Positions 9,361 to 53,679 of a DNA stretch of 64,000 nucleotides are shown one piece after another (positions within the stretch are counted from its first letter, which is position 1; every line of letters begins with the position of its first letter). The stretch comes from Streptomyces sp. NBC_00820. Its GTDB lineage: Bacteria; Actinomycetota; Actinomycetes; Streptomycetales; Streptomycetaceae. Under the pieces are notes generated by a model. The model was given only the letters and a program-made list of their open reading frames with translations. It was not told the origin of the DNA and did not search any database. The stretch lies in the NCBI RefSeq assembly GCF_036347055.1, contig NZ_CP108882.1, forward strand, positions 5,870,501 to 5,934,500. The letters run 5' to 3'. Both the position numbers and the translations under genes were made by a program.

Positions 9361-9483
9361 CGGTCGCCGTTCATAACCGATTTCCGCCGGAACAGCCAGC
9401 CCGGCTAACCTCCTAGCCATCACCCTCTCCCACTCTCGGCCGTGCCCGAGCGGGGGGACCACATCGGCAGGAGTACGAGAAAC

Positions 9484-30283: not shown

Positions 30284-31075
30284 TCAGTCCATCCGGCGCG
30301 GGGTGCCCAACAATCCGATCTCGGCATCGGTGGGTTGGGTGAGCACGTACTGCCGGTCACGGTCGGTGCACCACAGGGTGACGCCGTCGGGCAGCGCCGG
30401 CAACGACTCCACCTCGGTCCGGGACAGCCCCATCGTGCGCCCCAGCTCCGCCGCCTCGTCGGGCGAGACCCGCTGGATGCCCGCGAGCCGCGCCTGCCGC
30501 AGCAACCGGGGCGCGACCGGGCTGAGGTAAGGCAGCAGGGTCAGCACCGACTGCCAGGGGCCGCCGACCACCCGTCCGCGCGGCGGCCGCATGCCGCAGT
30601 CACGCACGACCAGCACGGGCGTCCCGGCCGACGCGCCCTGGGGCGGCACCCGCCCCACGTCGAACACGGACAGCCCGTTCTGCCCGCCGCCCATGGCGTG
30701 CACCATCTGCATCCAGGCCTGCGGCCGGCCGGTCTCCACGGCCACCCGCGCCCCCGTCGCCGCCGTCCGCAGCGCCAGCACCTGCGCCGTCCACAGGCCG
30801 CCGATCAGCACGATGTCGTACGGAGTGGGCCGGTTGATCCCCAGCACGGCCGGCTGCCCCTCGGCGTCCACACCGGCCACCACGCCGTCGTCACCGATCG
30901 GCAGGGCGAGCGCGTCCAGTTGCTGCCCGGGCAGCGAGTGCCGCGTGTGCCGGGGCCCGATCAGTCCGAGCCCGCGCCGCAGCCGCTCACCGGCCCGCGC
31001 CAGCCCGGAGGCGTCCGGCACTCCCGCGCCGGCCGCGCCCGCACCGCCGGGAGCCGTAGTCGTCGGAATCGTCAA
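30284..31075 (-). CDS. Conserved type VII secretion-associated protein of unknown function
   Basis: A 263-residue soluble protein lying between eccE and the EspI-like gene. I do not recognise a named domain. It has a hydrophobic alpha/beta stretch PTPYDIVLIGGLWTAQVLAL followed by ATGARVAVETGRPQAW, then a GGPWQSVLTLLPYLSP segment, and a C-terminal strand-rich part with LWCTDRDRQYVLTQP. There is no signal peptide or membrane helix. The start is TTG at 31075: GGAGGT lies five bases upstream and the TTG overlaps the eccE stop (TTGA). A longer reading frame to 31234 would run inside eccE and is rejected. Coupling to eccE suggests a role in the secretion machine. Confidence 0.7.
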   Translation of the reverse strand: MTIPTTTAPGGAGAAGAGVPDASGLARAGERLRRGLGLIGPRHTRHSLPGQQLDALALPIGDDGVVAGVDAEGQPAVLGINRPTPYDIVLIGGLWTAQVLALRTAATGARVAVETGRPQAWMQMVHAMGGGQNGLSVFDVGRVPPQGASAGTPVLVVRDCGMRPPRGRVVGGPWQSVLTLLPYLSPVAPRLLRQARLAGIQRVSPDEAAELGRTMGLSRTEVESLPALPDGVTLWCTDRDRQYVLTQPTDAEIGLLGTPRRMD

Positions 31076-32409
31076 CGCGCACCTCCAAGGGGCAACGTGG
31101 CCAGCATGCCCGGCAGTTGCTCGCGGTCCAGCCGGGCCAGACCCGCACCGGCCTGCTGCGCCGCGCTCTCCAGCGCGCGGCGCGCGGCCACGAGCTCGTC
31201 GTCGCTGCGCCCGGTCACCCGCAGGTGCCCGCACAGCGAAACCTCCTGCCGCTCGCCGCGCGCGAGCGTGAGGCTGAAGGTGGTGGCCAAAGCCGGAATC
31301 GCCGTCACCCGGGCGACGAACTGAGGCAGCGACTCACCCCGGGCGCCGCCCAGCTGGGGCCAGCGCCGGACCCAGTACGTCGTGTGCCGCCGGTTGTCGC
31401 ACCGCCAGCTGCGCCCGGACTCCTCCGTACGCCGCTCACGCGCCTCACCGCGCGCCGCCTCGGCGGTGACCAGGGGGTTGGCACAGGCCGAGGTGGCGAG
31501 CGCGGAGACCAGCTCCTCCTCGTCGAGCACGCTGGCCCGGAACCCCGCGCCGGTCAGCCGGCTCGCGAGATGGTCCGCGACCCGCACCACGCACTTCTGC
31601 GCCCCGAGCAGTCCGCCACCGCGCGCCGCCACCGCCTCCGCGCACAGCTCGGGATCGAGCTTCAGCGCGATCCAGGTGATGCGCACCGCCGGGGCGCCCG
31701 TCTGCTCCTGGAGCGGCTGGTAGTTGGCGACGGCCACGGACTGCTGCGGCAGATGCAGCGCGGGCGCCGGCTGCGTGTGCAGCACGACCTGGGCCGACTC
31801 CAGCCGGATCCCGTCCACCTCCAGCGCGTCCCGCACCAGCCCCAGCGGCAGCGGCTGCCGGTTCCGCTCGGCCCGCAGCGCCGTGGTGTCGGCCTCGACC
31901 TGGAGGACGGCGGTCAGGAAGGTCCCGTCCCCGGCCATCCCGACCGGGCGCCGGTCACGGCCGCCGTAGGAGTAGGTGCGCAGGGCGGGCTCGCACTCGA
32001 GGGCGGGCACCAGCGCCGGTTCCGTGCCAGGCGGTACCGGGGTCGCGGCGGCGCGCCGCTGACGTGCCTTCAGCTCACGGGCCGTGCCGAGCCACTCCGG
32101 CAGCGAGCGCCCCCGCCGCCGTACGAAGGCCAGCAGGACCAGGGCCACCGCGACGATCGCGGCAGGTACCAGCGCCAGCGTGCCGATCGCCCAGCCCACG
32201 ACCAGGACGGCGGCCGCGATCTCCACCAGGACGAGTCGTTGCAGACGAAACGAACCGGCCTGCCCCGGCCGGTGTCCGGGGCCCAGCGTGACCGCCTGAC
32301 GCGGCGCTTCGGACCGACCGGACGTCTCTCGTGGACCCGGCGCCGACTCGGCCGTACGACCACGTGCCGCGGACCGGCCGCGCGAACGCGTCCGCGTTCC
32401 GGAAGTCAT
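31072..32409 (-). CDS. eccE: Type VII secretion protein EccE
   Basis: Peripheral subunit of the ESX membrane complex with EccB, EccC and EccD. It has 445 residues. After a basic, Arg/Ser-rich N-terminal stretch come two adjacent transmembrane helices (RLVLVEIAAAVLVVGWAIG and LVPAAIVAVALVLLAFV, about residues 58-98), then a soluble domain typical for EccE (LPLGLVRDALEVDGIRLESAQVVLHTQ). ATG at 32409 has a GGGGGGA run seven bases upstream; the GTG three bases earlier overlaps it. Divergent from eccB across a 196-base promoter region. The overlapping downstream TTG start implies coupling to the next gene. Confidence 0.85.
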   Translation of the reverse strand: MTSGTRTRSRGRSAARGRTAESAPGPRETSGRSEAPRQAVTLGPGHRPGQAGSFRLQRLVLVEIAAAVLVVGWAIGTLALVPAAIVAVALVLLAFVRRRGRSLPEWLGTARELKARQRRAAATPVPPGTEPALVPALECEPALRTYSYGGRDRRPVGMAGDGTFLTAVLQVEADTTALRAERNRQPLPLGLVRDALEVDGIRLESAQVVLHTQPAPALHLPQQSVAVANYQPLQEQTGAPAVRITWIALKLDPELCAEAVAARGGGLLGAQKCVVRVADHLASRLTGAGFRASVLDEEELVSALATSACANPLVTAEAARGEARERRTEESGRSWRCDNRRHTTYWVRRWPQLGGARGESLPQFVARVTAIPALATTFSLTLARGERQEVSLCGHLRVTGRSDDELVAARRALESAAQQAGAGLARLDREQLPGMLATLPLGGAR

Positions 32410-32605
32410 CACTCCATCCCCCCGTTTTGCTCACAACTCATGGGAACCACGCGAACGCACAGGCCCCTTGAGGGCCCAGGTACCCTACCCGCTCCGCAGG
32501 ACTCGTCCCGCACCAGGCATAGTAGGGGCCGGGTCCGACAACGGAGGGCGGGGGAGCGTGGTCCCCGGGCGCGCTCCGCGTGAGACACGGGGAGAAACGG
32601 CACAG

Positions 32606-34135
32606 ATGGCATCTCGGCGGGACCAACTCAACGCCTACACCTTCGCGAAGCGCCGCATGCTCGCGTCGTTCGTGCAGTCGTCACCGGATGCCTCGGACGA
32701 GGGGGCTCCACGACCGCTGCGCGCGGTGCTGCCGGGCGCGATCGTCGGCGTGGTCGTCCTGGCGGCCTTCGGAGCCTGGGGCATGTTCAGGCCGACGGCC
32801 CCGGAGGGCTGGGACGCTCCCGGCCAGAAGGTGATCATCGCCAGCGAGTCGACCACCCGGTACGTGGTGCTGAAGACCAAGGGCAAGGTCCAGCTCCACC
32901 CGGTGCTCAACATGGCCTCGGCCAAGCTGGTCCTCGGCACCCAGGACGACGTGGACGTCGTCACCGTCGACGAGTCGATCCTCGACAACGGCAAGATCCC
33001 GCACGGCGTCACCATCGGCATCCCCTACGCGCCCGACCGGCTGCCGTCCGACACGGAGGCGGGAGCCGAGAAGCGCTGGGCCGTCTGCGAACGCCCCAGC
33101 GGCAGCGGCGACTCGATCCAGAAGGCCGCGTTCGTCCTGGCCACGCGCGACCTGGGCAGGACCGAGGGCGCCCGGCAGAAGCTGCACGGCGGCGAACTGC
33201 TCTACGTCACCACACCCGACAAGGCGCGCTACATCGTGGACGCCCGGGGCTGGGCGTACAAGGTGGACGGCACGGACCCGCTGCTGCTGCAGACCCTCGT
33301 GGGCACGACGCGTGAACCCCAGCACGTCACCAAGGAGTGGATCGACACCCTGCACCAGGGCGACCCCGTCGACTTCCCCGTGATCGACGGCACTCCGGGG
33401 ACACCGGCGAGCGCCCCCGGACAGCTGGACAGCCGGACCAACCGCGTCGGCATGGTGCTGCGGGCCCGGATCAACGGCAGCGAGCAGTACTTCGTCGTCC
33501 TGCCCCACCGGGTCGCCCCGGTCTCCCCCTTCGTCGCCCAGCTGCTGCTGACCAGCAAGGACCTCGTCACGGTCGGCCAGACAGGTCACGAGACGGAGGT
33601 CAGTCCCGGTGCCATCGTGCGGGGCGAGCCGTTCGGCGCCGAGCACACCTGGCCCACCGAGGCGCCCACCGCGGTCAACGAGGCCTCCACCGCCGCCGGC
33701 AGCCGCAACACCGTCTGCACCGTCCTGCGCCACGTCGACCCCAAGAACGGTGCCACGACGCTGAGCACCTGGGCGGGCACCGACTTCCCCGCGGTCCTGG
33801 CCACCGGCTCCTCCAGCGCGTACGTCACCGCCGGCTCCGGCCAGCTCTACCGCCAGTTCCAGGGCACGGAGGCCGCCGCGGGCCCGGTCTTCCTGGTCAC
33901 CGACACCGGCCTGCGCTACGCCCTGCAGTCCAACGACGACGGCGAGACGGGCAGCGCGGGCATCGGCGTCACCGTAAAGCAGCGCCAACAGCTCCAGCAG
34001 GAAGCCAAGCTGGCGCAGACCCACCTCGGATACGCGGGCGTGCGTCCCGCGCCGATTCCCGCGGCCTGGTCGAAGTTCCTGCCGACGGGCCCCCGCCTGT
34101 CCACGGCGGACGCCCGCCAGCCGCAGGGTTCGTGA
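32606..34135 (+). CDS. eccB: Type VII secretion protein EccB
   Basis: Single-pass membrane subunit of the ESX machine with a large domain outside the membrane. It has 509 residues. The N-terminus MASRRDQLNAYTFAKRRM is the characteristic EccB start; one transmembrane helix follows (LPGAIVGVVVLAAFGAWGMF, about residues 42-62). The outer part includes the family blocks VLKTKGKVQLHPVLNMASAKL and YTAPPDKARY-like YVTTPDKARYIVDARG. The ATG at 32606 is chosen over upstream in-frame codons because of this conserved start and GGGGAGA upstream. The mycosin gene starts 11 bases after its stop. Confidence 0.93.
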   Translation: MASRRDQLNAYTFAKRRMLASFVQSSPDASDEGAPRPLRAVLPGAIVGVVVLAAFGAWGMFRPTAPEGWDAPGQKVIIASESTTRYVVLKTKGKVQLHPVLNMASAKLVLGTQDDVDVVTVDESILDNGKIPHGVTIGIPYAPDRLPSDTEAGAEKRWAVCERPSGSGDSIQKAAFVLATRDLGRTEGARQKLHGGELLYVTTPDKARYIVDARGWAYKVDGTDPLLLQTLVGTTREPQHVTKEWIDTLHQGDPVDFPVIDGTPGTPASAPGQLDSRTNRVGMVLRARINGSEQYFVVLPHRVAPVSPFVAQLLLTSKDLVTVGQTGHETEVSPGAIVRGEPFGAEHTWPTEAPTAVNEASTAAGSRNTVCTVLRHVDPKNGATTLSTWAGTDFPAVLATGSSSAYVTAGSGQLYRQFQGTEAAAGPVFLVTDTGLRYALQSNDDGETGSAGIGVTVKQRQQLQQEAKLAQTHLGYAGVRPAPIPAAWSKFLPTGPRLSTADARQPQGS

Positions 34136-34146
34136 GGAGCACGCCG

Positions 34147-35415
34147 ATGACCTCCAGCCGCATCACCCCGCACCCCCGGCTCCGCACGCGTACGACCCTG
34201 GCGGCGGCGCTGGCCACGGCCGCCGCCGGCACCCTGCTGACGGCGCCCGTCGCGGCCGCCGACTCCGGATCCGACCAGTGCACGTTCTCCCGGACGAACC
34301 ACAAGTACGCCGGGACGCCCTGGGCCCTGCAGCGGGTCATGCTCGACGAGCTGTGGAGCCAGTCGAAGGGCAGGAACGTCAAGGTGGCCGTCATCGACAC
34401 AGGCGTCGACACGGCCAACCCACAGCTCACCCACGCGGTGGACGGCGCCCTGGGCGTCAACCTGCTGCCCCCCAAGGACGACAAGGGCCAGCCGGTCGAC
34501 GGAGCCAAGTCCAAGGCCACCACGGACACCGTCGGCCACGGCACACGCGTGGCCGGCATCATCGCCGCCCGCCCGATGAAGGGCACCGGCTTCGTCGGCC
34601 TGGCGCCCCAGGCCACGATCGTCCCCATCAAACAGAACGACGCGGAGGGCCACGGCACGGCCGACTCCCTCGCCGCCGCCGTCCGGCACGCGATCAAGGC
34701 CAAGGTCCAGGTCATCAACATCTCCCAGGACACCGCGAACGCCGCGGCCCCGACGGAGGACCTGCACCGGGCGGTCGACGAGGCCCTCGCGCAGCAGATC
34801 GTCGTCGTCGCCTCCGCGGGCAACGACGGCCTGGGCGGCAACGACAAGAAGACCTACCCGGCGTCGTACGCCGGTGTCCTCGCCGTTGCGGCCTCCGACC
34901 GCAACAACGAGCGGGCGGCGTTCTCCCAGTCGGGCGACTTCGTGGGCGTCGCGGCCCCCGGCGTCGACATGATCTCCACGGTTCCCAAGGGCGGCCACTG
35001 CTCCGACAACGGCACGAGTTTCTCGGCCCCCTACGTGGCCGGCGTCGCCGCGCTCATCAAGGCCAAGCACTCCGACTGGACCGCCCGCGAGGTCGTGGCA
35101 CAGATCGAGCAGACGGCGGAGCGTTCCATCACGGGGCACGACCGGCTCGTCGGCTGGGGAGTGGTGGACCCGGTCCGCGCCCTCACCGAGGACGATCACC
35201 CCATCGAGTCCCCCCACCCCGACGCGGGCCTCGCCCACGCGGAGGCCCCCACCCCCGCCCGCCTCACCCTCGGCGAGACCCCCGAGGAACGCAACGCCCG
35301 CATCGCCACGTACGCGGCCATCGGCGTCGGAGTCCTGGTGGCGGGCCTGAGCGGCGGCGCGGTGGCCCTGCGTGACGCGCGCAGGAGGCGCCGAGGACTG
35401 GAAGCCCGAGCCTGA
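34147..35415 (+). CDS. mycP: Mycosin (MycP-type subtilase), first copy
   Basis: Membrane-anchored subtilisin-like protease required for ESX function. It has 422 residues. Signal peptide at 1-38 (hydrophobic LAAALATAAAGTLLTAPVAAA). Catalytic residues are Asp in VAVIDTGVD, His in VGHGTRVAG and Ser in NGTSFSAPYVAG; the oxyanion Asn lies in SAGNDG. A transmembrane helix near the C-terminus (IGVGVLVAGLSGGAVAL) is followed by a basic tail, as in mycosins. GAGGAG precedes the ATG. It forms an operon with eccB and converges on a minus-strand accessory arm. A second, divergent mycosin gene lies 6.6 kb further on. Confidence 0.92.
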   Translation: MTSSRITPHPRLRTRTTLAAALATAAAGTLLTAPVAAADSGSDQCTFSRTNHKYAGTPWALQRVMLDELWSQSKGRNVKVAVIDTGVDTANPQLTHAVDGALGVNLLPPKDDKGQPVDGAKSKATTDTVGHGTRVAGIIAARPMKGTGFVGLAPQATIVPIKQNDAEGHGTADSLAAAVRHAIKAKVQVINISQDTANAAAPTEDLHRAVDEALAQQIVVVASAGNDGLGGNDKKTYPASYAGVLAVAASDRNNERAAFSQSGDFVGVAAPGVDMISTVPKGGHCSDNGTSFSAPYVAGVAALIKAKHSDWTAREVVAQIEQTAERSITGHDRLVGWGVVDPVRALTEDDHPIESPHPDAGLAHAEAPTPARLTLGETPEERNARIATYAAIGVGVLVAGLSGGAVALRDARRRRRGLEARA

Positions 35416-35493: not shown

Positions 35494-35771
35494 CTACGCG
35501 CACTCACCGCTGTTCCCCAGGGCACGGGAGTACGCGGTGGCCAACTTCCTCATCGCGGTGGCATCTCCGAGGTCCGAGGCGCGCACACGCAGGGAGACGT
35601 ACGGCACCCACCCGGGCCGGCCGGGATGCGCGCAGCCCTTGACGCGCATCACGGCACCCGTCCCGCTGTGCAGGAAGGTTCCGTCGGGGGACGGTTCGGC
35701 CGGACCCAGTTGGGGATTGGCGTCCGCCACCGTGAGTTCCGCCGTGGGCGGGTGGAATTCTGGATATGGGT
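35494..35771 (-). pseudogene. Fragment of a lipoprotein gene (C-terminal half of a paralogue)
   Basis: Immediately downstream of the intact lipoprotein gene, in another reading frame, lies an open segment with no plausible full-length start. It reads FHPPTAELTVADANPQ, then LHSGTGAVMRVKGC, and ends with DATAMRKLATAYSRALGNSGECA-type sequence (Cys-Ala-stop). This is the pattern of the C-terminal half of Streptomyces exported lipoproteins of the same kind: a strand, a Cys, then a helix with Met-Lys-Xaa-Leu and a final Cys. A GTG at 35730 could start a 78-residue protein, but it would lack a signal peptide. I read it as a relic of a second lipoprotein copy. Confidence 0.5.
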
Positions 35772-36311
35772 TCAGGACGTCGGCCGGCAGGGGTGTTGAT
35801 CCTTCAGCGACGTCGTGTAGCCGTCAATCATGCTCTTCACGGCGGATTCATTTTTCCGCGCCGGATCCAGCAGCTTGACGAGCGTGCTGATGTCCTCCTT
35901 CTCGACATCCGCTCCGCGGCATTTCACCAGCGACACGGCAGCACGGTCGGCGTAGGCGATGGAGCCGTCCTCCGCGGACTTCTGCTGCTGGATCGAGAGG
36001 CGGCTCTGCAGGATGTGGCGGGCCGAGTCACCGGCGTCGATCCGCTCGCTGCTGATCATCAGTACCGTGTCGCCGTCGACCTTGACGTCACACAGAGCGG
36101 AACCGTCGGTCAGGCTGCCGGTGTGCTGAGCCGTGAGGCGCTTGCCGGACTCCGGCAGGAGGCGGGAGAGCGCGTCGGCCGGGACGGGTGTTCCGCACAA
36201 CGCCTGCGGGACCTTGAACTCCCGCTTCGGCTCGTTCGTGGAGCAGCCGGCCGCCACCAGTCCGGCGAGGACGAGCGACGCGGCGCGCAGGGCGTGGGAT
36301 GCGGACTTCAA
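35772..36311 (-). CDS. Lipoprotein linked to the large WXG protein
   Basis: A 179-residue exported lipoprotein with lipobox LAGLVAAGC at about residues 14-22. The mature part (KVPQALCGTPVPADALSRLLPESGK onward, containing several Cys) ends in a helical domain SMIDGYTTSLKD. No enzyme motif is visible. The start is a TTG at 36311 overlapping the stop of the upstream large gene (TTGA), with GGAGAG about 10 bases before, so the two are translationally coupled. Third gene in the minus-strand cassette after a helical partner and a WXG-headed protein. A cell-surface immunity or docking role is a hypothesis from context. Confidence 0.75.
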   Translation of the reverse strand: MKSASHALRAASLVLAGLVAAGCSTNEPKREFKVPQALCGTPVPADALSRLLPESGKRLTAQHTGSLTDGSALCDVKVDGDTVLMISSERIDAGDSARHILQSRLSIQQQKSAEDGSIAYADRAAVSLVKCRGADVEKEDISTLVKLLDPARKNESAVKSMIDGYTTSLKDQHPCRPTS

Positions 36312-38614
36312 TTCTTGCCACTCTCCGATTTCCACTGGGCCCCGTCCGAGTGGCTGTGGCCGGCAGACGTGCGCGCCGCTCTCCGCAGATCCTCGGCAGT
36401 ATCGGCATTGATGGTGTCGTTCTTCGCCAGGGCGTGGTCGACGGCAGCGGCGGCTGAATTCAGGGCCGCGTTCCGTCCCGCCGTGTACTCCTGGCCGGCT
36501 TCTGTGTCTGCTTCGTCCGACGTGTCCTGCTCGATGCTCTTCATGATGGACTCCTGGATGTCCTCCGAAGCCCATTCCAGAGGGGCGCCGGCGATGGGAA
36601 CCCGCTCGGCCGCCTTCTCGAGCCCCATGCCCAGGACGCGGTTCACCCACTTCTGCTTCTCGGCGGCGGCTTCGTTGAACTCCGTGTCGGAAGCGACGTG
36701 GTAGTGGTGGATCGCATGGGCCCTGGCGTCGCTCATGATGCCGGCGATCGCCGAACCGGGGGCCACCGCGGCACCCACACGCCCGTCCAGGGACGCCGTC
36801 GAATGGCTCGGGTCGTTGATGACGTGGTCCACGACGTCGCTCGTGTAGGCCTGCTGCGCGGTCGTGATGGACGAATAGGCGTCGGGGTCCTGGCCGACTT
36901 CGCCCAGGAAACGGGAGACATGATTCGAGTCGAGGTCGGCAGCGGCGCCGAATGTCGGGAAGAGGCCGCTGTGAGGGTCCTCCTGGTACATGGCCTGCTG
37001 GAAGTCGCCCATGTACTCGGCGGTGATGTCTCCGAGGCTCCCGCGAAGGGCGTACAGGGGGCCGCTCTCCTCGTCCAGATCCCCGTTCTCGTTGTGCCTG
37101 ATGAGTTCGGGGTGTTCACCGAACTTGTCCACGATCTGGCTCACCAGGTGCGCACGAGCCTCGGTGTGCCTGATGGCGTCGGCCGTCGCGTCGGAGTCGT
37201 ACGGTCGCCCGCTGGTCGCCGACTCCAGGGCGTGGCCGAGGGCCTGGGGTCCGAAGCCGAGGGCCCTCTGCGTCTTGTCCTCGTCGACCATGATGTTCGT
37301 GTCGTTCGTGTCGACGGTCCACTCGAAGTCCTTGTCGGTGAACACGTCGAGGTACGACGTGAAACCGGGGTCGCCCCCCTGCTTCACCGTGCCGTCCTCG
37401 TTGTAGGCGGTCGGCGGCTGGGTGAAGAACTTCTCCGAGGCCTCCGGACTGTGCCCCAGCGCCTCCAGGACGCTGTTCAGCGGGTCGTTGCCGGTGCCGA
37501 GCTTGCCCGAAGGGTTGTAGCCGTAGAGGTCCGGGTTGTCGGCATGGCCACCCGGGGCGAAGAAGTGCGGGTTCTCCTTGTGGACCTGGGTGATGTGCTC
37601 CGCGATGGGCGTGAGGAACCGCGGGTCGTAATTGCCGTAACGGAGAAGGCCACCGAGCACCTGGTAGCCGAACGGCTTGTCCATCTGGCCCCGCTCCCAG
37701 CCGATCTGCTGGGTGCCGAGGCGCCGGAACTCCGTGCCCCAGCTGTCGGCCAGGTGATGGGTGTGGTCCGGGTCCGTCGCGTTGGCGAGCGTGTACCCCA
37801 TGACCTTCTGCAGGTCCCGTACCTCGTCGAGACGCATCGCGGACACGTGGCCGCTGGTGCCGTCGAGTGACATCTGGGCGTAGAACTTAAGGGCTTTGTC
37901 GGGGCCGCCGAGACCTTGGTAGAACTCGGTCGCGAACTCCCCGTCCTTCTCCGCGGAGTTGAACCGCAGCAGCTGGTTCAGCTCGCGCAGCTCCGCGTCG
38001 GACATCTTGGTCCCCTTGCGGGCCAGTTCGACGGCGCGCTCGGCCTCGGCGTCGTTCAGGGACCCGTACGCGCTGTGCCCTGCGTCGTGGCCGTCCTTGC
38101 CGTGGCTCTTCGCCAGGGCGCGGGCGACAGAGGCGTCGATCTCCTCGGCGTGGGCGAGCAGCCGGTTGATCCGGCCCTCCAGCTCCTGCCTGGCGTCGAG
38201 CTGCTCCGGAGTGCGCTCGTCGGTGTCACCACGGACGTGGGGGAAGAAGCAGCGGACCTTTCCGCCGCCGATGTCCTCGACACGGATCCCCAGATGCGGG
38301 GCATCGGTCTCGACCGCCTTCTTGATCTGTTTCTGCAGGGCCTCGAGTTCGGTGTGCCCGTCGTCGAGGACCTGGTAGATGCTGTTCGCCTCGACGTGGA
38401 GATCCGAGATCTCCTTGGTCGTCTTGGTGATGAACTCCCGCGTCACCGTCGCGTTGACACCGGCCCAGTGGGCCGAGTCCGACTTCGCCCGCATCCCCTT
38501 GCGCGCGTTCTCGGCCGACTTCGCGAGACCGTCGACGGTCTTCTTCCAGTCCGCCACGGCGGTGGCGAGCTTGCCGAGGTCGACCTCGACGAGGTCCGTG
38601 AACGTGAGAGCCAC
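36308..38614 (-). CDS. Large WXG-headed protein, DUF6571-like; putative type VII secretion cargo
   Basis: A 768-residue protein without signal peptide or membrane helix. The N-terminal 100 residues are a helical hairpin like WXG100 proteins: DLGKLATAVADWKKTVDGL, turn HWAGVN (Trp50-Ala-Gly52), then a second helix (TKTTKEISDLHVEANSIYQVLDD). The rest is a soluble domain resembling DUF6571 proteins found beside actinobacterial ESX loci, with the marker FYQGLGGPDKALKFYAQM and many Asp/Asn/His residues. No known toxin motif is recognised. GTG at 38614 follows AGGGGA 6 bases upstream; the extension to 38758 overlaps the preceding gene and is rejected. Secretion is inferred from the WXG head and location. 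Confidence 0.75.
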   Translation of the reverse strand: MALTFTDLVEVDLGKLATAVADWKKTVDGLAKSAENARKGMRAKSDSAHWAGVNATVTREFITKTTKEISDLHVEANSIYQVLDDGHTELEALQKQIKKAVETDAPHLGIRVEDIGGGKVRCFFPHVRGDTDERTPEQLDARQELEGRINRLLAHAEEIDASVARALAKSHGKDGHDAGHSAYGSLNDAEAERAVELARKGTKMSDAELRELNQLLRFNSAEKDGEFATEFYQGLGGPDKALKFYAQMSLDGTSGHVSAMRLDEVRDLQKVMGYTLANATDPDHTHHLADSWGTEFRRLGTQQIGWERGQMDKPFGYQVLGGLLRYGNYDPRFLTPIAEHITQVHKENPHFFAPGGHADNPDLYGYNPSGKLGTGNDPLNSVLEALGHSPEASEKFFTQPPTAYNEDGTVKQGGDPGFTSYLDVFTDKDFEWTVDTNDTNIMVDEDKTQRALGFGPQALGHALESATSGRPYDSDATADAIRHTEARAHLVSQIVDKFGEHPELIRHNENGDLDEESGPLYALRGSLGDITAEYMGDFQQAMYQEDPHSGLFPTFGAAADLDSNHVSRFLGEVGQDPDAYSSITTAQQAYTSDVVDHVINDPSHSTASLDGRVGAAVAPGSAIAGIMSDARAHAIHHYHVASDTEFNEAAAEKQKWVNRVLGMGLEKAAERVPIAGAPLEWASEDIQESIMKSIEQDTSDEADTEAGQEYTAGRNAALNSAAAAVDHALAKNDTINADTAEDLRRAARTSAGHSHSDGAQWKSESGKN

Positions 38615-38624
38615 TGGAGTTCCC

Positions 38625-39104
38625 CTACTTGAAGTACTCGTTGAGCTGGGACACCGACACGGTGGATCCGTCACTGCCGCGCAGGACGGTCCCGATCTTC
38701 GCGTCGTCCTCCGCGTGCAGCTTCTTCGTGAAGTCCAGGTGGTCGGAGATGTGCGCACAGGCCTGGAGGACGGACTTGACCTGCGACGTCCAGATCTCGA
38801 CGGTCGTCTCCAGGGCGCCCCCCGTCTGGAAGCCGTGCGACTTCAGGGCGGACGCCGCCTGCGCCGTCGAGCCGGCTCCTCCGCTGCCGGCCCCGGCCCC
38901 GGCGATGTCGGCCTGGCTCCGTACGTCGTCGTACAGGAGGTGGGCCTCGTGCCCGACCGCACCCAGGTCGTCCTGGTACACCACCAGGTCGCCGGTTCCC
39001 CCGCCCCCGCCACCACCGTCCGGTGCCAGCTGATTGAGGCGCGTGTGGGTCGACGGCCGCTCGGCGGCCTGAGCCTTGAGCTGTTCCCACTCGTCCCATG
39101 CCAT
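38625..39104 (-). CDS. Helical WXG-like partner protein
   Basis: A 159-residue, Gly-rich yet helical protein opening a minus-strand three-gene operon. The N-terminus MAWDEWEQLKAQAAERPSTH is followed by a Gly run (30-37), a helix with DLVVYQDDLGAVGHEAHLLYDD, a Gly/Ala linker, and a final helical pair (LETTVEIWTSQVKSVLQAC and ISDHLDFTKKLHAEDD). The last helical pair resembles WXG100/ESX partner proteins although the turn reads WTS, not WXG. Its stop overlaps the ribosome-binding site of the large WXG gene. A chaperone or co-secreted partner role is inferred. No signal peptide. Confidence 0.65.
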   Translation of the reverse strand: MAWDEWEQLKAQAAERPSTHTRLNQLAPDGGGGGGGTGDLVVYQDDLGAVGHEAHLLYDDVRSQADIAGAGAGSGGAGSTAQAASALKSHGFQTGGALETTVEIWTSQVKSVLQACAHISDHLDFTKKLHAEDDAKIGTVLRGSDGSTVSVSQLNEYFK

Positions 39105-39692
39105 CGGGTGGACCCCTTCCCCTGTGACCCCCGTCGGTCTTCCCGTCGAGAGACGCGGGGCGGTGCCGACGTTCCGGTGTGCCGTCAAGTTAGCAACGGG
39201 GCCCGCGTGAAATCTCCGTCACCGTCAAGGTGTGATGTCCGCCGCGCGTGAAGGTTCCGAGGAGACGGGCGGCGCCCGCTTCCGCAGGCGAGTGGGGCAC
39301 GTCCGTCCCGTCGCCACGAGAGTCCTGCGTCCCCGCCCTGCGCGTCGATCCTGACCTGGTCGAACTGTTCGACAAGGCGGCGTGACCTCCGCAGGGTGAG
39401 GTTTTGTGGTTGCAAAGTTCACCCGTGACCGGATCGAGTGGACCCGGCCACAGGGCGGATGTGAATCTTCTGCGGTGATGTCGGGATCCCTCTGTCTACT
39501 CCATACCGATTGCGGGTTTTTGGGGTCTTGTGACCGACCGCTTCGGGACGGCATCGCAACTGAACCGTCGCAGAGTTCAGTTGGCCGCGATTTACACAGT
39601 GACTACAGTGGTCGATGAAGGTACGGGTGTGCGGTGCGCGCCGCCTGGGCCGTCAAAAGTTGTACAAACGGGGAAACGGGGAAGGGGTCGCA
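39105..39692. promoter_or_regulatory. Divergent regulatory region between the two WXG cassettes
   Basis: 588 bases, AT-richer than surroundings around 39400-39610. It holds no credible gene; short open frames at 39185-39415 and 39406-39618 lack coding bias and ribosome-binding sites. A good plus-strand promoter is listed separately (39581-39609). On the minus strand TAACTT at about 39187-39192 is a possible -10 for the 159-residue gene, without a matching -35. A repeated ACAGTG word occurs at 39595-39610. Confidence 0.55.
39581..39609 (+). promoter_or_regulatory. Vegetative-type promoter of the plus-strand WXG cassette
   Basis: TTGGCC (39581-39586) and TACAGT (39604-39609) are exactly 17 bases apart, one of the best -35/-10 pairs in the window. 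Transcription would start near 39616, leaving a leader of about 77 bases before the GTG at 39693, or almost none if the ATG at 39615 is used. Confidence 0.6.
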
Positions 39693-40172
39693 GTGGGTGA
39701 CGGTGGCGGCTCGGACGTGAGGCGCGGAGTCGACGCGCTGTCGGCGTTCAAGGACCAGATCGACAAGGCGCTGGGCGACTTCGAGGGTTCTCCCGGCAGC
39801 CCGTCCAAGATCGAGGAACAGGCGCTCGGCCGTACGTCGTTCGGTGGTGTGAATGCCCAGTTCGACGAGGCCGGCAATCTGCACACGCAATACGAGCACG
39901 TGCATGAGCGCCTCATTCACCTCTCGAAAACGCTGGGCCTGCACATCGAGGCCCTGAAGCTCGCCACGCACGCGGCCGATGTCACCTACGACGGGACCGA
40001 GGACGAGGTGCGGCGCCGGTTCTGGCAGATCCAGCACCAGCTCGATGACGATTATCAGCAGGCCGTCAAGCAGCAGCGGGAGCACGACCAGGTTGCCAAG
40101 ACGGGCGACCACGGCGGCAAGGCGGACTCGGGGCGCGGCCACAACGAGACGGTGGGGGCGGACCAGGCATGA
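39693..40172 (+). CDS. Esx-like helical partner protein of the second WXG cassette
   Basis: A 159-residue helical protein. The core has helix DVRRGVDALSAFKDQIDKAL, a linker, and helix LIHLSKTLGLHIEALKLATHAADV. It is followed by YDGTE (99-103), which fits the YxxxD/E secretion signal, and the octapeptide DGTEDEVR (100-107) that also occurs in EsxB of this locus (DGTEDEVR, 85-92). The rest of the C-terminus is polar. GTG at 39693 has GGGGAAGGGG just upstream; an ATG at 39615 would add 26 residues without a ribosome-binding site. The stop overlaps the next gene (ATGA), so the two are coupled. Role as secreted partner is inferred. Confidence 0.7.
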   Translation: MGDGGGSDVRRGVDALSAFKDQIDKALGDFEGSPGSPSKIEEQALGRTSFGGVNAQFDEAGNLHTQYEHVHERLIHLSKTLGLHIEALKLATHAADVTYDGTEDEVRRRFWQIQHQLDDDYQQAVKQQREHDQVAKTGDHGGKADSGRGHNETVGADQA

Positions 40173-41962
40173 GCGACGACTGGAAGAAGAAGCCTCAGTA
40201 CAAGTCCGATGTGCAGCAGGTCGGCCAAGAGGTCGACGGCAAGGTCACGCCTGTCACCACCGCGCAGAACGTGCTGGCGCACATGCCGTTCTTCGGTGGT
40301 GTCCGTGTCAACCTCCTCGGCTCGACGAACTTCGAGGACCACGATCTCAACGAGATGATCGACCTGGTCCAGCATGCCAACCCCGATCACCTCGAGCTGA
40401 CCGGCAAGTCCCTGTGGGACGCCGGCACCGCCATTCGCAGGGCCGCGGTGGACCTGGAGAAGCATCTCGGTGTCGACTGGGAGGGTGAGGGCGCCACCGC
40501 CTTCCATGGCTGGACCCAGAATCTCCTGACCTACACCCACCAGCTCGCGGGCTACGCCGACCACGCGGCCACCCAGCTGTCCGTGGCGGCCACGGGTCTG
40601 GCCTCCGTGCGCAGCGCCATGCCACCTCGGGACACCCGGCCGCATGCCGACCAGAAGCTCCCCACCGAACTACCCAAGACCAAGCAGGTCGACGGCAACC
40701 CTGACTACGCGGCCGCGCTGAAGGTCGAGAACAACCGGCAAGAAGCGATCAACCAGATGAACCGTCTGGCGTCGTTCTATCAGGTGTCGGCGACGGAGCT
40801 GCACAAGCAGCCGGAGCCGGATCCGCTGTCGGCGATGCCCAATGTCGGAGTGCCTCAGCCGAGTTCGCGGGATGTCGAGTCTGCATACCGAAGGCACGAT
40901 TCGGGATCGTCGCCGGTGCGGACCGCCGCGATCCAGGAGGATGTGGCGGGGCACCACGCTTCTTCCGCCCCGACCGGAACCGACGTCGGTGGGCACGTAC
41001 GTCCCGTCAATGATGTGCACGATCCCGTCACGCGTCCCGGCGACGACGTCGGCACGAAGATCGACACGGTGGACACGCTGCCCCCTCAGGCGCCCGCGCA
41101 GCATGGCACGCCGACGCCGACTCTCCCCACCACGGGTGGAGGCGGCGGGCAGACACCTCCCCTGATCACCGGCCCGTCGGCGCCGCCGATGGCCCCGCCC
41201 GTCGGCCGTTCCGGCGGTTACGGCCCGGTCGGCCGGCTTCCCCTGTCCACGCAGGGCCGTCCCGGTCAGTCCGGTACCGCGAGCGGACGGGTCCCGCAGG
41301 GGCCCGAAGGGCAGGCCGGGCGTGCCACGGCCGGCGGTCGTGCGACGCAGGGCCCCTTGGGGCAGGCGGGGCGTGCTGCAGGGCGCACGACGCCGACCGG
41401 TCAGCCGGGTATGCGGGGTGCCACGGAGGCGGGCCGTTCGCCCATGGGGCGTGCTGTCACTGGCGGTACCCCGAGGCCGGCCAACTCGCCGGGCGGGCGC
41501 ACCGGAACCGCTGGTTCCAGTGGTCCTGTGCGCAATGGCGTGGTGGGTGGCAAGCCGGTCTCCGGTCGCTCCGGCACTGCCGGATCCAACCCGCGTATGC
41601 CGCGCGGCACGGTCGTCGGTGCCGAGGAACAGGCCTCCTCCACCCCGGTGAGGGGTGCTCTCGGTCAGCGGGGTGTCGTGGGTGCTCCCGCCGCCAAGGC
41701 CGAACCGGGCGCCGCGCGGCAGGTCCTGCGTTCGGCCGGCAACCCCGAGGGTGTGGTCGGCGCACCTCGTAATAAGAACAGTGCCGCCTCGTCCCCCGAA
41801 GATCCGGCGGTCGGTAGTGGTGGCCGGGGGCGCGGTCGTGGTGTCGTGGGGGAGCGGCAGGGCCCGGAAGGTGGGACCGGTCGTGCCGGTGGACCGTCCG
41901 AGAAGGAACAGCACCGTTCGTCCCGCAAGCAGCGACGTGAGACGCCCCAGAAGAGCGACTGA
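40169..41962 (+). CDS. WXG-headed protein with long Gly/Arg/Pro repeat tail; putative type VII cargo
   Basis: A 597-residue protein. The N-terminal 150 residues are a WXG100/PPE-like helical hairpin: MIDLVQHANPDHLELTGKSL, turn VDWEGEGATAF (Trp104-Glu-Gly106), then LLTYTHQLAGYADHAATQL. From about residue 240 onward the chain is disordered and repetitive: first Pro/Thr-rich, then Gly-Arg-Ala units such as GQAGRA, then at least five VVG-containing units (NGVVGGKP, GTVVGAEE, RGVVGAPA, EGVVGAPR, RGVVGERQ). No signal peptide or membrane helix. The ATG overlaps the preceding stop. PPE-type proteins in mycobacteria are secreted through ESX systems with a small partner; the same is inferred here. Confidence 0.72.
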   Translation: MSDDWKKKPQYKSDVQQVGQEVDGKVTPVTTAQNVLAHMPFFGGVRVNLLGSTNFEDHDLNEMIDLVQHANPDHLELTGKSLWDAGTAIRRAAVDLEKHLGVDWEGEGATAFHGWTQNLLTYTHQLAGYADHAATQLSVAATGLASVRSAMPPRDTRPHADQKLPTELPKTKQVDGNPDYAAALKVENNRQEAINQMNRLASFYQVSATELHKQPEPDPLSAMPNVGVPQPSSRDVESAYRRHDSGSSPVRTAAIQEDVAGHHASSAPTGTDVGGHVRPVNDVHDPVTRPGDDVGTKIDTVDTLPPQAPAQHGTPTPTLPTTGGGGGQTPPLITGPSAPPMAPPVGRSGGYGPVGRLPLSTQGRPGQSGTASGRVPQGPEGQAGRATAGGRATQGPLGQAGRAAGRTTPTGQPGMRGATEAGRSPMGRAVTGGTPRPANSPGGRTGTAGSSGPVRNGVVGGKPVSGRSGTAGSNPRMPRGTVVGAEEQASSTPVRGALGQRGVVGAPAAKAEPGAARQVLRSAGNPEGVVGAPRNKNSAASSPEDPAVGSGGRGRGRGVVGERQGPEGGTGRAGGPSEKEQHRSSRKQRRETPQKSD

Positions 41963-43339: not shown

Positions 43340-43373
43340 GAGGCAAGGTCAGTTCACAGAGAAAGGCATGGAA

Positions 43374-43712
43374 ATGGCGCAGCGCCAGAAGGTAAGCGAC
43401 AAGGACATTATCGTCCTCGAAAAGGAGCTTCTGCACCGTTTCGAGGGCATCAAGGGTCAGCTGAAGGAACTCCAGGCCATCATCGACAGCCTCGAGGGCC
43501 ACTGGAAGGGCATCGGCGCCGGTGCGTTCAACACCAAGCAGACCGAGATCAACGAGCGCATGGTCCGCATCGGCAACATCCTGGCCAAGTTCATCGAGGC
43601 CATGACGAACACCCGGAAGATCAAGGACGGCACGGAGGACGAGGTCCGCTCCCAGGTCCAGGGCATCGACGTGGACCTCGGCGGCTCGCACTCCGCCCTC
43701 TCCAGCTACTGA
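43374..43712 (+). CDS. esxB: ESX secretion substrate EsxB (WXG100 family)
   Basis: A 112-residue helical-hairpin protein secreted as a heterodimer with EsxA in ESX systems; in S. coelicolor the EsxA/EsxB pair is known to affect sporulation. The first helix is VLEKELLHRFEGIKGQL, the WXG turn is HWKGIGAG (Trp44-Lys-Gly46), and the second helix is NERMVRIGNILAKFIEAM. The C-terminus contains DGTEDEVRSQV, an octapeptide shared with the partner protein at 39693, but no Tyr for a full YxxxD/E motif. The ATG at 43374 is preferred over 43368 because AAAGG is 7 bases upstream. Orthologue naming (A versus B) follows gene order and is less certain than family membership. Confidence 0.88.
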   Translation: MAQRQKVSDKDIIVLEKELLHRFEGIKGQLKELQAIIDSLEGHWKGIGAGAFNTKQTEINERMVRIGNILAKFIEAMTNTRKIKDGTEDEVRSQVQGIDVDLGGSHSALSSY

Positions 43713-49713: not shown

Positions 49714-52700
49714 TCAGTACTCGACGTCCACCAGACCCGTCTGAACCAGGGGCTTGCCCCGCTTGCGGGACACGAAGACGCCCCGCCCCGCCGGCATCGC
49801 CCGCGGCCGGACCCCGCCCAGGATGTCGCCCTCCGTCGGGTCGCCCGCCATGATGAGGCCCTGAGCGCCCAGTTCCTTCATGCGCTGGACGAACGGCTCG
49901 TACGCGGCACGGCCCGCGCCCGCCGAGGAGCGGGCGATGATGAAGCGGACGCCGACGTCCCGCGCGAACGGGAGCATCTCGGTCAGGCCGCTCAGCGGGT
50001 TGCCGCTGGACGTGGACACGAGGTCGTAGTCGTCGATGACGACGAACACCTGCGGACCGCGCCACCAGCTGCGCTCACGCAACTGCTGCGCGGTGACCTC
50101 GGCCGTCGGGGTCCGGCGCTGCATCAGGTCGGCGAGCGCGGCCATGTGGTGGTCCATCTGGCTCGACATCGGGATGTACTCCGCCAGGTGCGAGGGCGGG
50201 GTGATGTCCAGCAGCGAGCGGCGGTTGTCGACCACGAAGAACTTGGCCTCGTCGCCGCTGTACTGCTGCGTCAGCTGCTTGATCAGCAGCCGCAGCAGGT
50301 TGGACTTGCCGGACTCGCTCTCGCCGAAGACGAGGAAGAACGGGTCCTGGTCGAAGTCGAGGAACACCGGTTCCAGGTTGTCCTCGTCGAGCGCGAAGGC
50401 GACACCCCGCTGGGGGAAGCGGTCGCCCGGCGGCAGCTCCACCGCTTCCAGCTGACGCGGCAGCAGGCGTACCTGCGGCGCGCCCGGCGCCTGCCAGTGC
50501 CGCCCGACCTCGGCGGTCAGCGCCGCCGTCGCCTCGGCGAGATCGGTGTCGGAGGTCAGGCCGTCGATCCGCGGCACCGCCGCCATGAAGTGCAGCTTCT
50601 GCGGGGAGAGGCCGCGGCCGGGGACGCCGGCGGGGACGTTCACGGCCACCTTGCGGTCGATCTCGGAGTCCATGACGTCGCCCAGGCGCAGCTCCAGGCG
50701 GTTCATCAGGTGGTCCTTCATGTTCGCCCGGACCTCCATCGAGCGCGACGCCGTGATGACCACGTGGATGCCGTAGCCGAGACCGCGCGCGGCGATGTCC
50801 AGCACGGCCGGCTCCAGGCCCTCGTAATCCGTACGGAAGTTGCCCCAGCCGTCGACGACCAGGAACACGTCACCCCACGGCTGGTCGGTGACGGAGATGT
50901 CCCCGCGCGCCCGCCGGGCCCGGAAGTCGGCGATGGAGGCGATGCCGGCCGAGCGGAAGTACTCCTCGCGGCGCGTCATCACGCCGTACACCTCGGAGAC
51001 CGTACGGCGCACCCGCTCGGGGTCCAGGCGGGACGCGATCCCGCCCACGTGCGGCAGGTCCGCCACCGCGGCCATGCCGCCGCCACCGAAGTCGAGGCCG
51101 TAGAACTGCACCTCGTGCGGCGTGTGCGTGAGCGCGAAGGAGCAGATCAGGCTGCGCAGCAGCGTCGACTTGCCGGACTGCGGGCCGCCGATGATCTGCA
51201 TGTGGCCCGCCGCGCCCGAGAAGTCGAGCAGCAGCCGGTCGCGGCGCTGCTCGTACGGCTTGTCGACCAGGCCGGCCGGGACGACCAGGCGTCCCGAGGC
51301 CTCGTAGTCGGGCTGGGTGAGACCGCGCCCCTGCACCGCGGTCAGGCCGGGCAGCAGCGCGTCGAGCGAGGGCGGGCTCTCCAGGGGCGGCAGCCACACC
51401 TGGTGTGCCGACGGCCCCTGTGCCTCCAGCCGGCGCACGATCACGTCGAGGACCGTGTCGGCCAGCGCGTCGTCCACGTCCGGCGCGGACTCGACGCGCT
51501 GCTGCGGCACGGCGGTGTACTGCACCGGTACCTCCGTCGCCGTGAACAGCACCGGCCGCCGGTCCACCGGCAGCGGGCCTCCCGGCAGTGCCGTCCGCCG
51601 GCTGCCCGTGCGGTAGGTCCCGGAGACGTACGCCGCCTTGAACCGCACCATCTCGTCCGTGCCGAACTTCAGGAAGCCGGAACCGGGGACGTTGGGGAGT
51701 TCGTAGGCGTCGGGGACGCCCAGCGCGGCACGCGACTCGGCCGCGGAGAACGTCCGCAGACCGATCCGGTACGACAGGTACGTCTCCAGGCCGCGCAGCC
51801 GGCCCTCCTCCAGGCGCTGCGAGGCCAGCAGCAGGTGCACGCCGAGCGAACGGCCGATGCGGCCGATCTGCACGAACATCTCGATGAAGTCCGGCTTGGC
51901 GGTCAGCAGCTCGCTGAACTCGTCGATCACCAGGACGAGCGAGGGGATCGGCTGGAGCGGGGCGCCCGCCGCGCGCGCCTTCTCGTAGTCGTGGATGTTG
52001 GCGTAGTTGCCGGCGTCGCGCAGCATCTCCTGGCGCCGGTTCAGCTCACCGCGGATCGAGTCGCCCATGCGGTCGACCAGGGTCAGGTCGTCGGCCAGGT
52101 TGGTGATGACAGCGGCGACGTGCGGCATCTGGGCCATGCCGGCGAAGGTGGCACCGCCCTTGAAGTCGGCGAGGACGAAGTTCAGGGTCTCGGAGGAGTG
52201 CGTGACCGCGAGGCCCAGCACCAGCGTGCGCAGCAGCTCCGACTTGCCGGAACCCGTGGCGCCGACGCACAGGCCGTGCGGGCCCATGCCCTCCTGCGCG
52301 GCCTCCTTGAGGTCGAGCATGACCGGACGGCCGTCCTCACCGAGGCCGATCGGCACCCGCAGGCGCTCGGCCAGGGCGCGCGGGCGCCAGGTCCGCTTGG
52401 TGTCGACGGAGGCCGCGTCGCCGAGTCCGAGCAGGTCGGTGAACTCCAGGTTGGCGAGCAGCGGTTCGTCGTCGTCGCCGCCCGACGCCATGCGCAGCGG
52501 CGCCAGCTGCCGGGCCAGCGCCTCGGCCGACTCGTGCGACAGGGTGTCCGGGCTGCCCTCGTAGACCATGCCGTGCCCGGACTCCAGGCGCAGCAGGTCC
52601 GGCTGTACGACGACCGACAGGTCGCCCCCGGCGCCCGTCAGCTCACCCGGCACCACCTCGATGACGGTGACGCCCTGCAGACCCTCCGGCGAGGCGAGCA

Positions 52701-53679
52701 CGGAGTCGGGCAGCAGCGACAGATCGTCGAGGACGATCACGATGTGCGGCTCGTCGGGCAGCGGCGCCGCGTCGGGGTGGAAGCGCGGGCGTCCGGTCAG
52801 CCGGGTGGCCAGCAGGTCTTCCAGTTCGCGGGTGTCGCCGCCGATCAGCCGCCGACTGCCCGCGCCGTCCATCGCGCCGGACGTCTGCGTGTGCGGCAGC
52901 CACTTCGCCCAGTCCCAGTGCGGCAGCGCCTCACGCCCCGCGGCCACCGCGACGACCAGGTCCTGGGGGGAGTGCAGCGAGGCCAGCGAGCCGACCAGGG
53001 CACGGGCGCAGCCGCGCACGGACTCCGGCTCACCGCTGAGGGTGACGTGATAGAAGGCGCGCAGCGAGACCGCCATCGGCAGCTCGGTGAGTGTGCCGTG
53101 CAGGGACACGAACCGCTGCATCGCGCCCGCGGTCAGCGGCTCCAGCTGTTCGACGGGACCCGTCTCCGGAGCCAGCAGCGGGGTCGCCAGCGGCTGCGGA
53201 CCCAGACCGACGCGCACGTGCGAGAAGTCCTCGTCGCCGGGCCGCCGCTCCCAGACCCGGCTGCCCTCGGCGACGAGCGCCCAGAGCTGTTCGGGGGAGG
53301 GGTGCAGGTAGTACTGGGCGTCCCGCTGGGCCTTCGCCGTCCGCACGGCGGCCTTGCGGGTCTGCGACAGATAGCTGAGGTAGTCGCGCCGCAGGTCGGC
53401 CAGCTGCCCCTGGGAGCCGCGACGGAAGCGGACCACCATCGCGATCGACATTCCCACCGTCGAGGCGATCATGATCATGCCCATGATCTTCATGAACGGC
53501 TGTCCGTTCGTGAAGAAGAAGACCACGGAACCACCCATGCCGAGCGTGGGCAGCAACTGCATCAGGACGCTCTCCTGATGGCCCCGCGGTAGTTCCGGCG
53601 GTGGCTGGACAGCGATCTCTTCCGTGGGCACTTCGGACGGAAGCGCCCGAGGAGGGCGCTTTACGACAATCTGGCTCAC
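49714..53679 (-). CDS. eccC: Type VII secretion motor ATPase EccC (FtsK/SpoIIIE family)
   Basis: Membrane-bound translocation motor that recognises Esx substrates. It has 1321 residues, the undivided EccCa-Cb form. Two adjacent transmembrane helices lie near residues 40-85, then a DUF-type stalk domain, then three P-loop ATPase domains: GATGSGKSE near 473 with Walker B LVIDEFSEL, GGPQSGKST near 830 with FLVVDGW, and GESESGKSN near 1117 with VVIDDYD. Only the first has the catalytic Asp-Glu pair, as is usual for EccC. GTG at 53679 has GGTGAG just upstream. It diverges from eccD across a 304-base region; a minus-strand -10 candidate is described there. Confidence 0.96.
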   Translation of the reverse strand: MSQIVVKRPPRALPSEVPTEEIAVQPPPELPRGHQESVLMQLLPTLGMGGSVVFFFTNGQPFMKIMGMIMIASTVGMSIAMVVRFRRGSQGQLADLRRDYLSYLSQTRKAAVRTAKAQRDAQYYLHPSPEQLWALVAEGSRVWERRPGDEDFSHVRVGLGPQPLATPLLAPETGPVEQLEPLTAGAMQRFVSLHGTLTELPMAVSLRAFYHVTLSGEPESVRGCARALVGSLASLHSPQDLVVAVAAGREALPHWDWAKWLPHTQTSGAMDGAGSRRLIGGDTRELEDLLATRLTGRPRFHPDAAPLPDEPHIVIVLDDLSLLPDSVLASPEGLQGVTVIEVVPGELTGAGGDLSVVVQPDLLRLESGHGMVYEGSPDTLSHESAEALARQLAPLRMASGGDDDEPLLANLEFTDLLGLGDAASVDTKRTWRPRALAERLRVPIGLGEDGRPVMLDLKEAAQEGMGPHGLCVGATGSGKSELLRTLVLGLAVTHSSETLNFVLADFKGGATFAGMAQMPHVAAVITNLADDLTLVDRMGDSIRGELNRRQEMLRDAGNYANIHDYEKARAAGAPLQPIPSLVLVIDEFSELLTAKPDFIEMFVQIGRIGRSLGVHLLLASQRLEEGRLRGLETYLSYRIGLRTFSAAESRAALGVPDAYELPNVPGSGFLKFGTDEMVRFKAAYVSGTYRTGSRRTALPGGPLPVDRRPVLFTATEVPVQYTAVPQQRVESAPDVDDALADTVLDVIVRRLEAQGPSAHQVWLPPLESPPSLDALLPGLTAVQGRGLTQPDYEASGRLVVPAGLVDKPYEQRRDRLLLDFSGAAGHMQIIGGPQSGKSTLLRSLICSFALTHTPHEVQFYGLDFGGGGMAAVADLPHVGGIASRLDPERVRRTVSEVYGVMTRREEYFRSAGIASIADFRARRARGDISVTDQPWGDVFLVVDGWGNFRTDYEGLEPAVLDIAARGLGYGIHVVITASRSMEVRANMKDHLMNRLELRLGDVMDSEIDRKVAVNVPAGVPGRGLSPQKLHFMAAVPRIDGLTSDTDLAEATAALTAEVGRHWQAPGAPQVRLLPRQLEAVELPPGDRFPQRGVAFALDEDNLEPVFLDFDQDPFFLVFGESESGKSNLLRLLIKQLTQQYSGDEAKFFVVDNRRSLLDITPPSHLAEYIPMSSQMDHHMAALADLMQRRTPTAEVTAQQLRERSWWRGPQVFVVIDDYDLVSTSSGNPLSGLTEMLPFARDVGVRFIIARSSAGAGRAAYEPFVQRMKELGAQGLIMAGDPTEGDILGGVRPRAMPAGRGVFVSRKRGKPLVQTGLVDVEY

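Follow-up and report, generated by a model that had tools for sequence, protein, structure and literature searches.

Three coupled minus-strand genes in the type VII secretion (ESX) locus of Streptomyces sp. NBC_00820 probably encode a polymorphic effector together with its cognate immunity lipoprotein. They specify a small helical partner, a large protein with a WXG-type head and a lipoprotein, and lie in a stretch of 64,000 nucleotides of contig NZ_CP108882.1 (positions 5,870,501 to 5,934,500), here called the window. A preliminary description of this DNA had offered the effector-immunity role as a hypothesis; from sequence comparison we would give it a probability of roughly 0.7, with the C-terminal region of the large protein probably acting at the membrane or wall from outside. 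We regard this as the best reading because the C-terminus and the lipoprotein are exchanged together, because extra lipoproteins stand in tandem behind some cassettes, because the head is shared with an Ntox44 protein and because the large protein co-occurs with EccB. The gene order, the predicted fold of the head, the co-exchange, the tandem lipoproteins and the EccB association were all observed computationally.

The layout is largely as first described. Partner (159 residues), large protein (768 residues) and lipoprotein follow one another closely; the GGGGA that precedes the GTG of the large gene runs on from the partner's TAG, and the lipoprotein starts with a TTG at 36311 that shares bases with the stop of the large gene, TGA at 36310-36308. 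The lower boundary, placed at 35494, needed correction: the lipoprotein ends at 35772, and 35494-35799 is a separate out-of-frame stretch of 101 codons. This layout is not a matter of chance. With an identical downstream-gene caller and thresholds, a single-anchor exported protein was found 3' of 71 among 78 related large genes but behind 4 of the 88 controls, which were other genes of at least 300 codons in the same stretches and the window; a lipobox-like motif was present in 59 and 2 of these cases, respectively. Judged by eye, the genes of all 58 long proteins, the window's included, stand in front of an open reading frame (ORF) whose product carries a lipobox or hydrophobic anchor. Nor is the order unusual for an actinomycete ESX locus, as had been supposed; it is common in Streptomyces. 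A match to the large protein (E<=1e-10) is present in 90 of the 150 Streptomyces genomes sampled, and the window genome holds four further relatives, two matching over part of their length only and at least one (L003) arranged likewise with a partner and a lipoprotein.

The comparisons of relatives point to a cassette that evolves as two exchangeable halves, partner with head and C-terminus with lipoprotein. The larger of two sets draws on 80 loci out of 292 confirmed places in Streptomyces, L-numbers denoting the stretches around relatives. Similarity matrices for 76 cassettes (the window and 75 of the 80 loci) gave correlations of 0.92 between partner and head, 0.79 between C-terminus and lipoprotein and 0.13 between head and C-terminus; that of partner with C-terminus, given the head, was -0.015. 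Five loci (L107, L138, L148, L158 and L161) had been dropped for a broken or truncated large ORF, a lipoprotein cut short or wrongly called, or lack of a called partner; over-long lipoprotein calls in L109 and L112 were trimmed to the last 180 residues, and L136, which has lost its C-terminal frame, was retained here but left out of the segment scan and the thinned set. Thinning of near-duplicates, which left 63 of the 76, gave 0.91, 0.84 and 0.14 for the same three pairs. A second set comprised the 58 cassettes whose large protein, among 76 called, exceeds 680 residues; here the lipoprotein correlated at 0.81 with residues 471-680 and at 0.54 with the head, while its partial correlations were -0.02 with the body and 0.07 with the head (reached in 71 of 2000 permutations). 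L051 and L060, with no called partner, were scored as poly-A in these matrices and excluded from the partial tests, and L052, whose partner looks miscalled, was kept.

The signal can be placed along the large protein. Within the C-terminal type of the window (38 sequences), a scan in 32-residue windows, with non-independent pairs and no permutation test per window, put the lipoprotein signal highest at residues 513-640 and 705-768, skipping 641-672, and the partner signal most strongly at residues 1-64 and 161-224.

Individual loci show the exchange as a block. Set against the window, L119 (S. cellostaticus) shows 85% identity in the partner; over residues 1-432 it has 69-90% and over 433-480 57%, before falling to 21-41% over residues 481-768 and to 27% in the anchored protein. 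Beyond the anchored protein identity returns, with 87% in MycP, 81% in EccB and 89% in EccE, and L121 and L134 follow the same pattern. A finer mosaic is seen in L114, L120 and L137, which differ from the window chiefly at residues 529-624 (52-57%) and 721-768 (32-36%) and have a lipoprotein of only 24-29% identity, whereas residues 625-720 stay at 62-77%.

The lipoproteins themselves also occur outside their usual place. After filtering by hand, 17 extra lipoprotein-like stretches remained, located behind the cassettes of 13 among 80 loci; three are incomplete, with a coverage of 0.65-0.68. The raw count was 28 lipoproteins at other positions in 22 of 81 stretches, from which 11 were discounted by reading distances: three lay directly behind another large gene, three were the cognate lipoprotein, either displaced or following a broken large gene, and for five no upstream large gene could be seen on the strand concerned. 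In L105, which has an effector of the window type, the extra lipoprotein is 72% identical to the protein of the L119 type; in L121, with an L119-type effector, the extra lipoprotein is 72% identical to that of L105. Behind the cognate gene of L117 (S. thermovulgaris, 8919-10198) stand at least two further, mutually different lipoproteins with no large genes between them, resembling an immunity array. The out-of-frame stretch at 35494-35799 fits a decayed extra copy of the same family, judged by its score of 19.0 bits against the lipoprotein profile (E 6.6e-7, with few frames searched) and by a tblastn alignment with an intact gene of L117 (41.6% identity, E 2.7e-14). Its intact relatives are present in other loci; the remnant itself fails the coverage filter of the tandem search.

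As a candidate immunity protein, the window lipoprotein carries a lipobox-type Cys23 and four further cysteines that are invariant among window-type lipoproteins (51 sequences, four of them tandem extras). A second lipoprotein group (19 sequences) has an equal number of invariant cysteines and a single-transmembrane group (9 sequences) has three; profile comparison joins the anchored-protein groups at 95.5% and 97.3% probability. Neither lipoprotein group has a meaningful match in Pfam. A Mog1/PsbP-like fold is at most a tentative candidate for the lipoprotein. Lipoprotein and large protein also co-vary across the genus, as the preliminary description had suggested surveying: 54 of the 150 genomes have a lipoprotein match and 50 of these also have the large protein (Fisher p 1.4e-10), so the lipoprotein is not widespread without its WXG gene.

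None of the three window proteins has a meaningful match in Pfam or NCBIfam, and the large protein does not match PF20211 (DUF6571) at E<=1. It is, however, 39.5% identical over 99% of its length to a plasmid-borne protein of Streptomyces caniferus annotated as DUF6571, which passes the cut-off of that family (66.4 bits against 27), and by sequence we place it in the family around DUF6571. In the predicted structure a WXG-type helical hairpin is set on a helical body; helices span residues 13-47 and 53-107, and W50-A51-G52 lies in or next to the turn between them, in keeping with the hairpin first proposed. A WxG falls within residues 39-62 in 139 of 156 proteins, the window's among them. The partner has no Pfam match, and the partner of the S. 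caniferus relative matches PF10824 EspC (27.2 bits, cut-off 23.5); judged by such relatives, it would be a small helical escort of WXG100/EspC type. A single small partner was called in the directly adjoining position upstream of large genes, the position examined systematically. On a plasmid of Streptomyces sp. NBC_01006 (L011, 5596-6840), partner-like and head-like sequence share one ORF, apparently a natural partner-effector fusion.

The same head is joined to different C-terminal domains. In the Kitasatospora plasmid protein L012 (5992-7143), which has a small gene upstream, a head 29.9% identical to the window's over residues 3-191 (E 5e-7) precedes the known toxin domain Ntox44 (E 1.8e-17). 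Another unnamed C-terminal type, with a conserved WDRYNWD, follows the head in L064-L077; these proteins usually have a lipoprotein or single-anchor protein of their own, with none called in L073, at a contig end. Across the class, the head profile matched 26 of 296 genomes at E<=1e-8, 22 within the genus and four weakly outside it. Among the weak matches, from another family of the class, L206 and L207 pair a 117-residue small gene, which we take to be WXG/EspC-like, with a WXG-headed large protein whose C-terminus is presumably alpha/beta-hydrolase-like; L208 has the same large protein, and L209 a different one of 517 residues with a 134-residue gene in front.

An association with the ESX system is seen in the genus sample, where EccB is present in 136 of 150 genomes and the large protein matches in 89 of these against 1 of the 14 without EccB (p 2.7e-5). 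In that exception (G010, 93% complete) the match is limited to residues 190-633, with no partner-like gene beside it among the ORFs read.

Several results weigh against an effector-immunity role. As already noted in the preliminary description, no toxin domain is recognised in the window's large protein by Pfam or NCBIfam; no solved relative was found; the body is one helical family and not a short classical toxin tip; and the glycine-zipper pattern of some relatives is absent from the window protein. The canonical YxxxD/E export motif is not conserved: out of 77 and 68 partners, 15 and 12 respectively carry it within their final 75 residues. Four of the 54 lipoprotein-positive genomes have no large-protein match. 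Gene adjacency favours co-inheritance, and in the 76-cassette set the lipoprotein kept partial correlations of 0.364 with the body, 0.373 with the head and 0.246 with the partner (0 of 1000 permutations each), that with the head persisting at 0.188 after thinning (0 of 1000).

It should be considered whether the large protein might be a non-toxic structural or developmental ESX substrate, serving the envelope, sporulation or the channel, with the lipoprotein as accessory and diversity driven by phage or predators bearing on a surface structure. A large helical body without a recognised enzyme domain would suit such a substrate, and the two subtilases of the locus could process it. We nonetheless consider this improbable, as it poorly explains an exchange confined to the C-terminus and lipoprotein, tandem lipoproteins that match the effector types of other strains, the 60 of 150 genomes without a match, or the same head on an Ntox44 toxin. 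A second alternative, that C-terminus and lipoprotein correlate by mere physical linkage in a recombining cluster, is distinctly improbable. The correlated parts are indeed DNA neighbours on both sides, partner with head and C-terminus with lipoprotein, and residual correlations of the lipoprotein with head and body persist. Against it, identity is back at 78-89% in MycP, EccB and EccE past the anchored protein (L119, L121 and L134), body and C-terminus correlate at 0.48 where C-terminus and lipoprotein reach 0.79 at comparable distance and across a gene boundary, and the lipoprotein signal skips residues 641-672. Least probable of all is a non-toxic pair of matching surface labels for kin recognition: polymorphic matched pairs and predicted surface anchoring would agree with it, yet supernumerary lipoproteins not immediately preceded by a large gene are expected of immunity and less of labels, and the head is exchanged in modular fashion with a toxin domain.

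Under the favoured effector-immunity reading, the partner would pair with the N-terminal hairpin and deliver the large protein to the channel specified by the flanking ESX genes, and the helical body would be exported along with the head. The exchangeable region, from about residue 450 to 768, would then attack adjacent bacteria from the outside, with the cytoplasmic membrane or the cell wall as the most likely site. The lipoprotein, tethered at the outer face of the producer's membrane, would recognise its own effector type at about residues 513-640 and 705-768 and so protect producer and kin. Within this explanation, and as a sub-question of it, an attack on the wall or lipid II, as by TelC, and not on the membrane is the unlikelier version. 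An outside-facing lipoprotein fits a wall target, its model resembles Tsi3, the immunity protein of a muramidase, and a lipoprotein signal is likewise predicted, according to the accessible part of PMC9484751, for TipC, which confers immunity to TelC, a lipid II phosphatase. On the other side, the C-terminus is helical with no catalytic motif recognised, and many relatives carry a Gly/Ala-rich hydrophobic stretch at the place of window residues 655-696. Of the 135 family proteins compared, 36 show a glycine-zipper pattern, where shuffling predicts 4.5; the 58- and 76-cassette sets, from which these proteins come, have at least eight contigs in common as judged by equal length (L085/L123, L086/L128, L087/L133, L088/L139, L089/L140, L091/L150, L093/L174 and L094/L179).

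Two dedicated partner proteins, Lap1 and Lap2, have a defining role in the LXG family. The likeness to the LXG modules of Firmicutes type VIIb systems, part of the first proposal, holds for the order of small partner, large export-headed protein and immunity candidate, for the polymorphic C-terminus and, as far as the accessible text of PMC9484751 goes, for tandem immunity genes (esaG, tsaI and tipC clusters). It does not extend to the head, which is WXG-type, with no LXG model among the Pfam matches at E<=1 (nor, at E<=0.1, in ten relatives), to the one partner seen directly upstream, to the long helical body or to the type VIIa (ESX) setting. In Staphylococcus aureus, TspA/TsaI and EsxX/ExiABCD are membrane-depolarising type VII toxins that, in the portions available, likewise combine an export head, a toxic C-terminus and membrane-located immunity, EsxX having in addition a soluble immunity pair, ExiAB (PMC7456083, PMC12744356). 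Zippers of the cassette relatives recall these toxins (TelE/EsxX, and TspA with a shorter zipper); unlike them, the window protein lacks the zipper pattern and the immunity candidate is a lipoprotein or single-anchor protein, not polytopic. TelC/TipC of Streptococcus shares the predicted lipoprotein signal and tandem occurrence (PMC9484751, in part), but neither is among the matches listed for the cassette proteins, no direct comparison having been made.

Among actinomycetes, AaEAS of Amycolatopsis azurea is a type VII-linked alarmone synthetase whose gene stands between one for a targeting factor, upstream, and a putative immunity gene, downstream, and its Streptomyces 'cluster B' homologs adjoin putative immunity and type VII genes; it differs in its catalytic C-terminus and in inhibiting growth when expressed in the cytoplasm, and the accessible portion of the article does not describe its immunity gene as a lipoprotein (PMC12691689). 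The article thus already suggests, for Amycolatopsis as for Streptomyces, effectors that are linked to type VII systems and accompanied by immunity genes, and the general idea for Streptomyces is in print. WXG-headed polymorphic toxins of actinobacteria with immunity partners were also predicted by Zhang et al. in 2012, where, in the text available, neither DUF6571 nor the cassette lipoprotein family was found (PMC3482391). A literature search on the name DUF6571 returned no paper, and among the matches listed for Streptomyces or actinobacterial type VII effector-immunity, with most subscription journals outside, no title or beginning of an abstract described the cassette.

The cassette and the surrounding ESX genes are listed in Table 1; the ORF at 53858-55489 is, from its position alone, presumably EccD. 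Next to the cassette on the plus strand lies a second small/large pair (39615-40172 and 40169-41962; 185 and 597 residues) with no Pfam match at E<=0.001, which also stands beside several cassette relatives and may be another ESX substrate pair. A 1117-residue ORF with an AAA_31/ParA-type ATPase domain (26577-29930) adjoins the ESX genes.

Table 1. Features of the cassette and its ESX surroundings, in window coordinates.
Feature	Position	Strand	Basis or remark
Partner gene	38625..39104	minus	ATG at 39104, stop at 38625, 159 aa
Large gene	36308..38614	minus	GTG at 38614, stop at 36308, 768 aa
WXG-type export head (predicted), residues 1-190	38045..38614	minus	model; WAG at 38459-38467; co-varies with partner
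Helical repeat-like conserved body, residues 191-470	37205..38044	minus	model and identity windows
Exchangeable C-terminal region, residues 471-768	36311..37204	minus	similarity matrices and identity windows
Lipoprotein-following segment, residues 513-640	36695..37078	minus	partial r 0.24-0.58, four windows; candidate immunity-contact surface
Two helices, low-confidence loop 666-679, residues 655-696	36527..36652	minus	model
Second lipoprotein-following segment, residues 705-768	36311..36502	minus	partial r 0.46 and 0.39
Lipoprotein gene	35772..36311	minus	TTG at 36311, 179 aa, end 35772
Putative second-lipoprotein remnant, C-terminal half, out of frame, 101 codons	35494..35799	minus	profile and tblastn
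EccE	31072..32412	minus	PF11203
EccB	32468..34135	plus	PF05108
Subtilase ORF (mycosin-type; residues 345-608; true start probably inside)	33337..35415	plus	PF00082
Second subtilase (mycosin-type)	41986-43263		Pfam
Two WXG100 genes, EsxB/EsxA type	43368-43712 and 43751-44053	plus	PF06013
EccC-type FtsK/SpoIIIE ATPase	49714..53679	minus	PF01580

To our knowledge, what the ESX system of Streptomyces exports beyond two WXG100 proteins, and for what purpose, is largely open. If the effector-immunity reading is true, it would provide matched pairs with residue ranges predicted to set specificity (513-640 and 705-768), natural test material in strains that are distinguished at the ESX locus mainly by the C-terminal half and the lipoprotein, and a working hypothesis on what DUF6571 and a lipoprotein family without a Pfam name do. 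A wider proposal is tentative, at somewhat less than even odds: Streptomyces ESX may be an antibacterial or kin-discrimination weapon, with DUF6571 proteins as major non-enzymatic, membrane-acting polymorphic toxins, often several to a genome. Strains would trade the C-terminal halves of these toxins jointly with the cysteine-rich immunity lipoproteins that match them, and would stockpile foreign immunity genes in tandem. Were that so, DUF6571 and the unnamed lipoprotein family would gain a function, and the ESX (type VIIa) system a competitive role.

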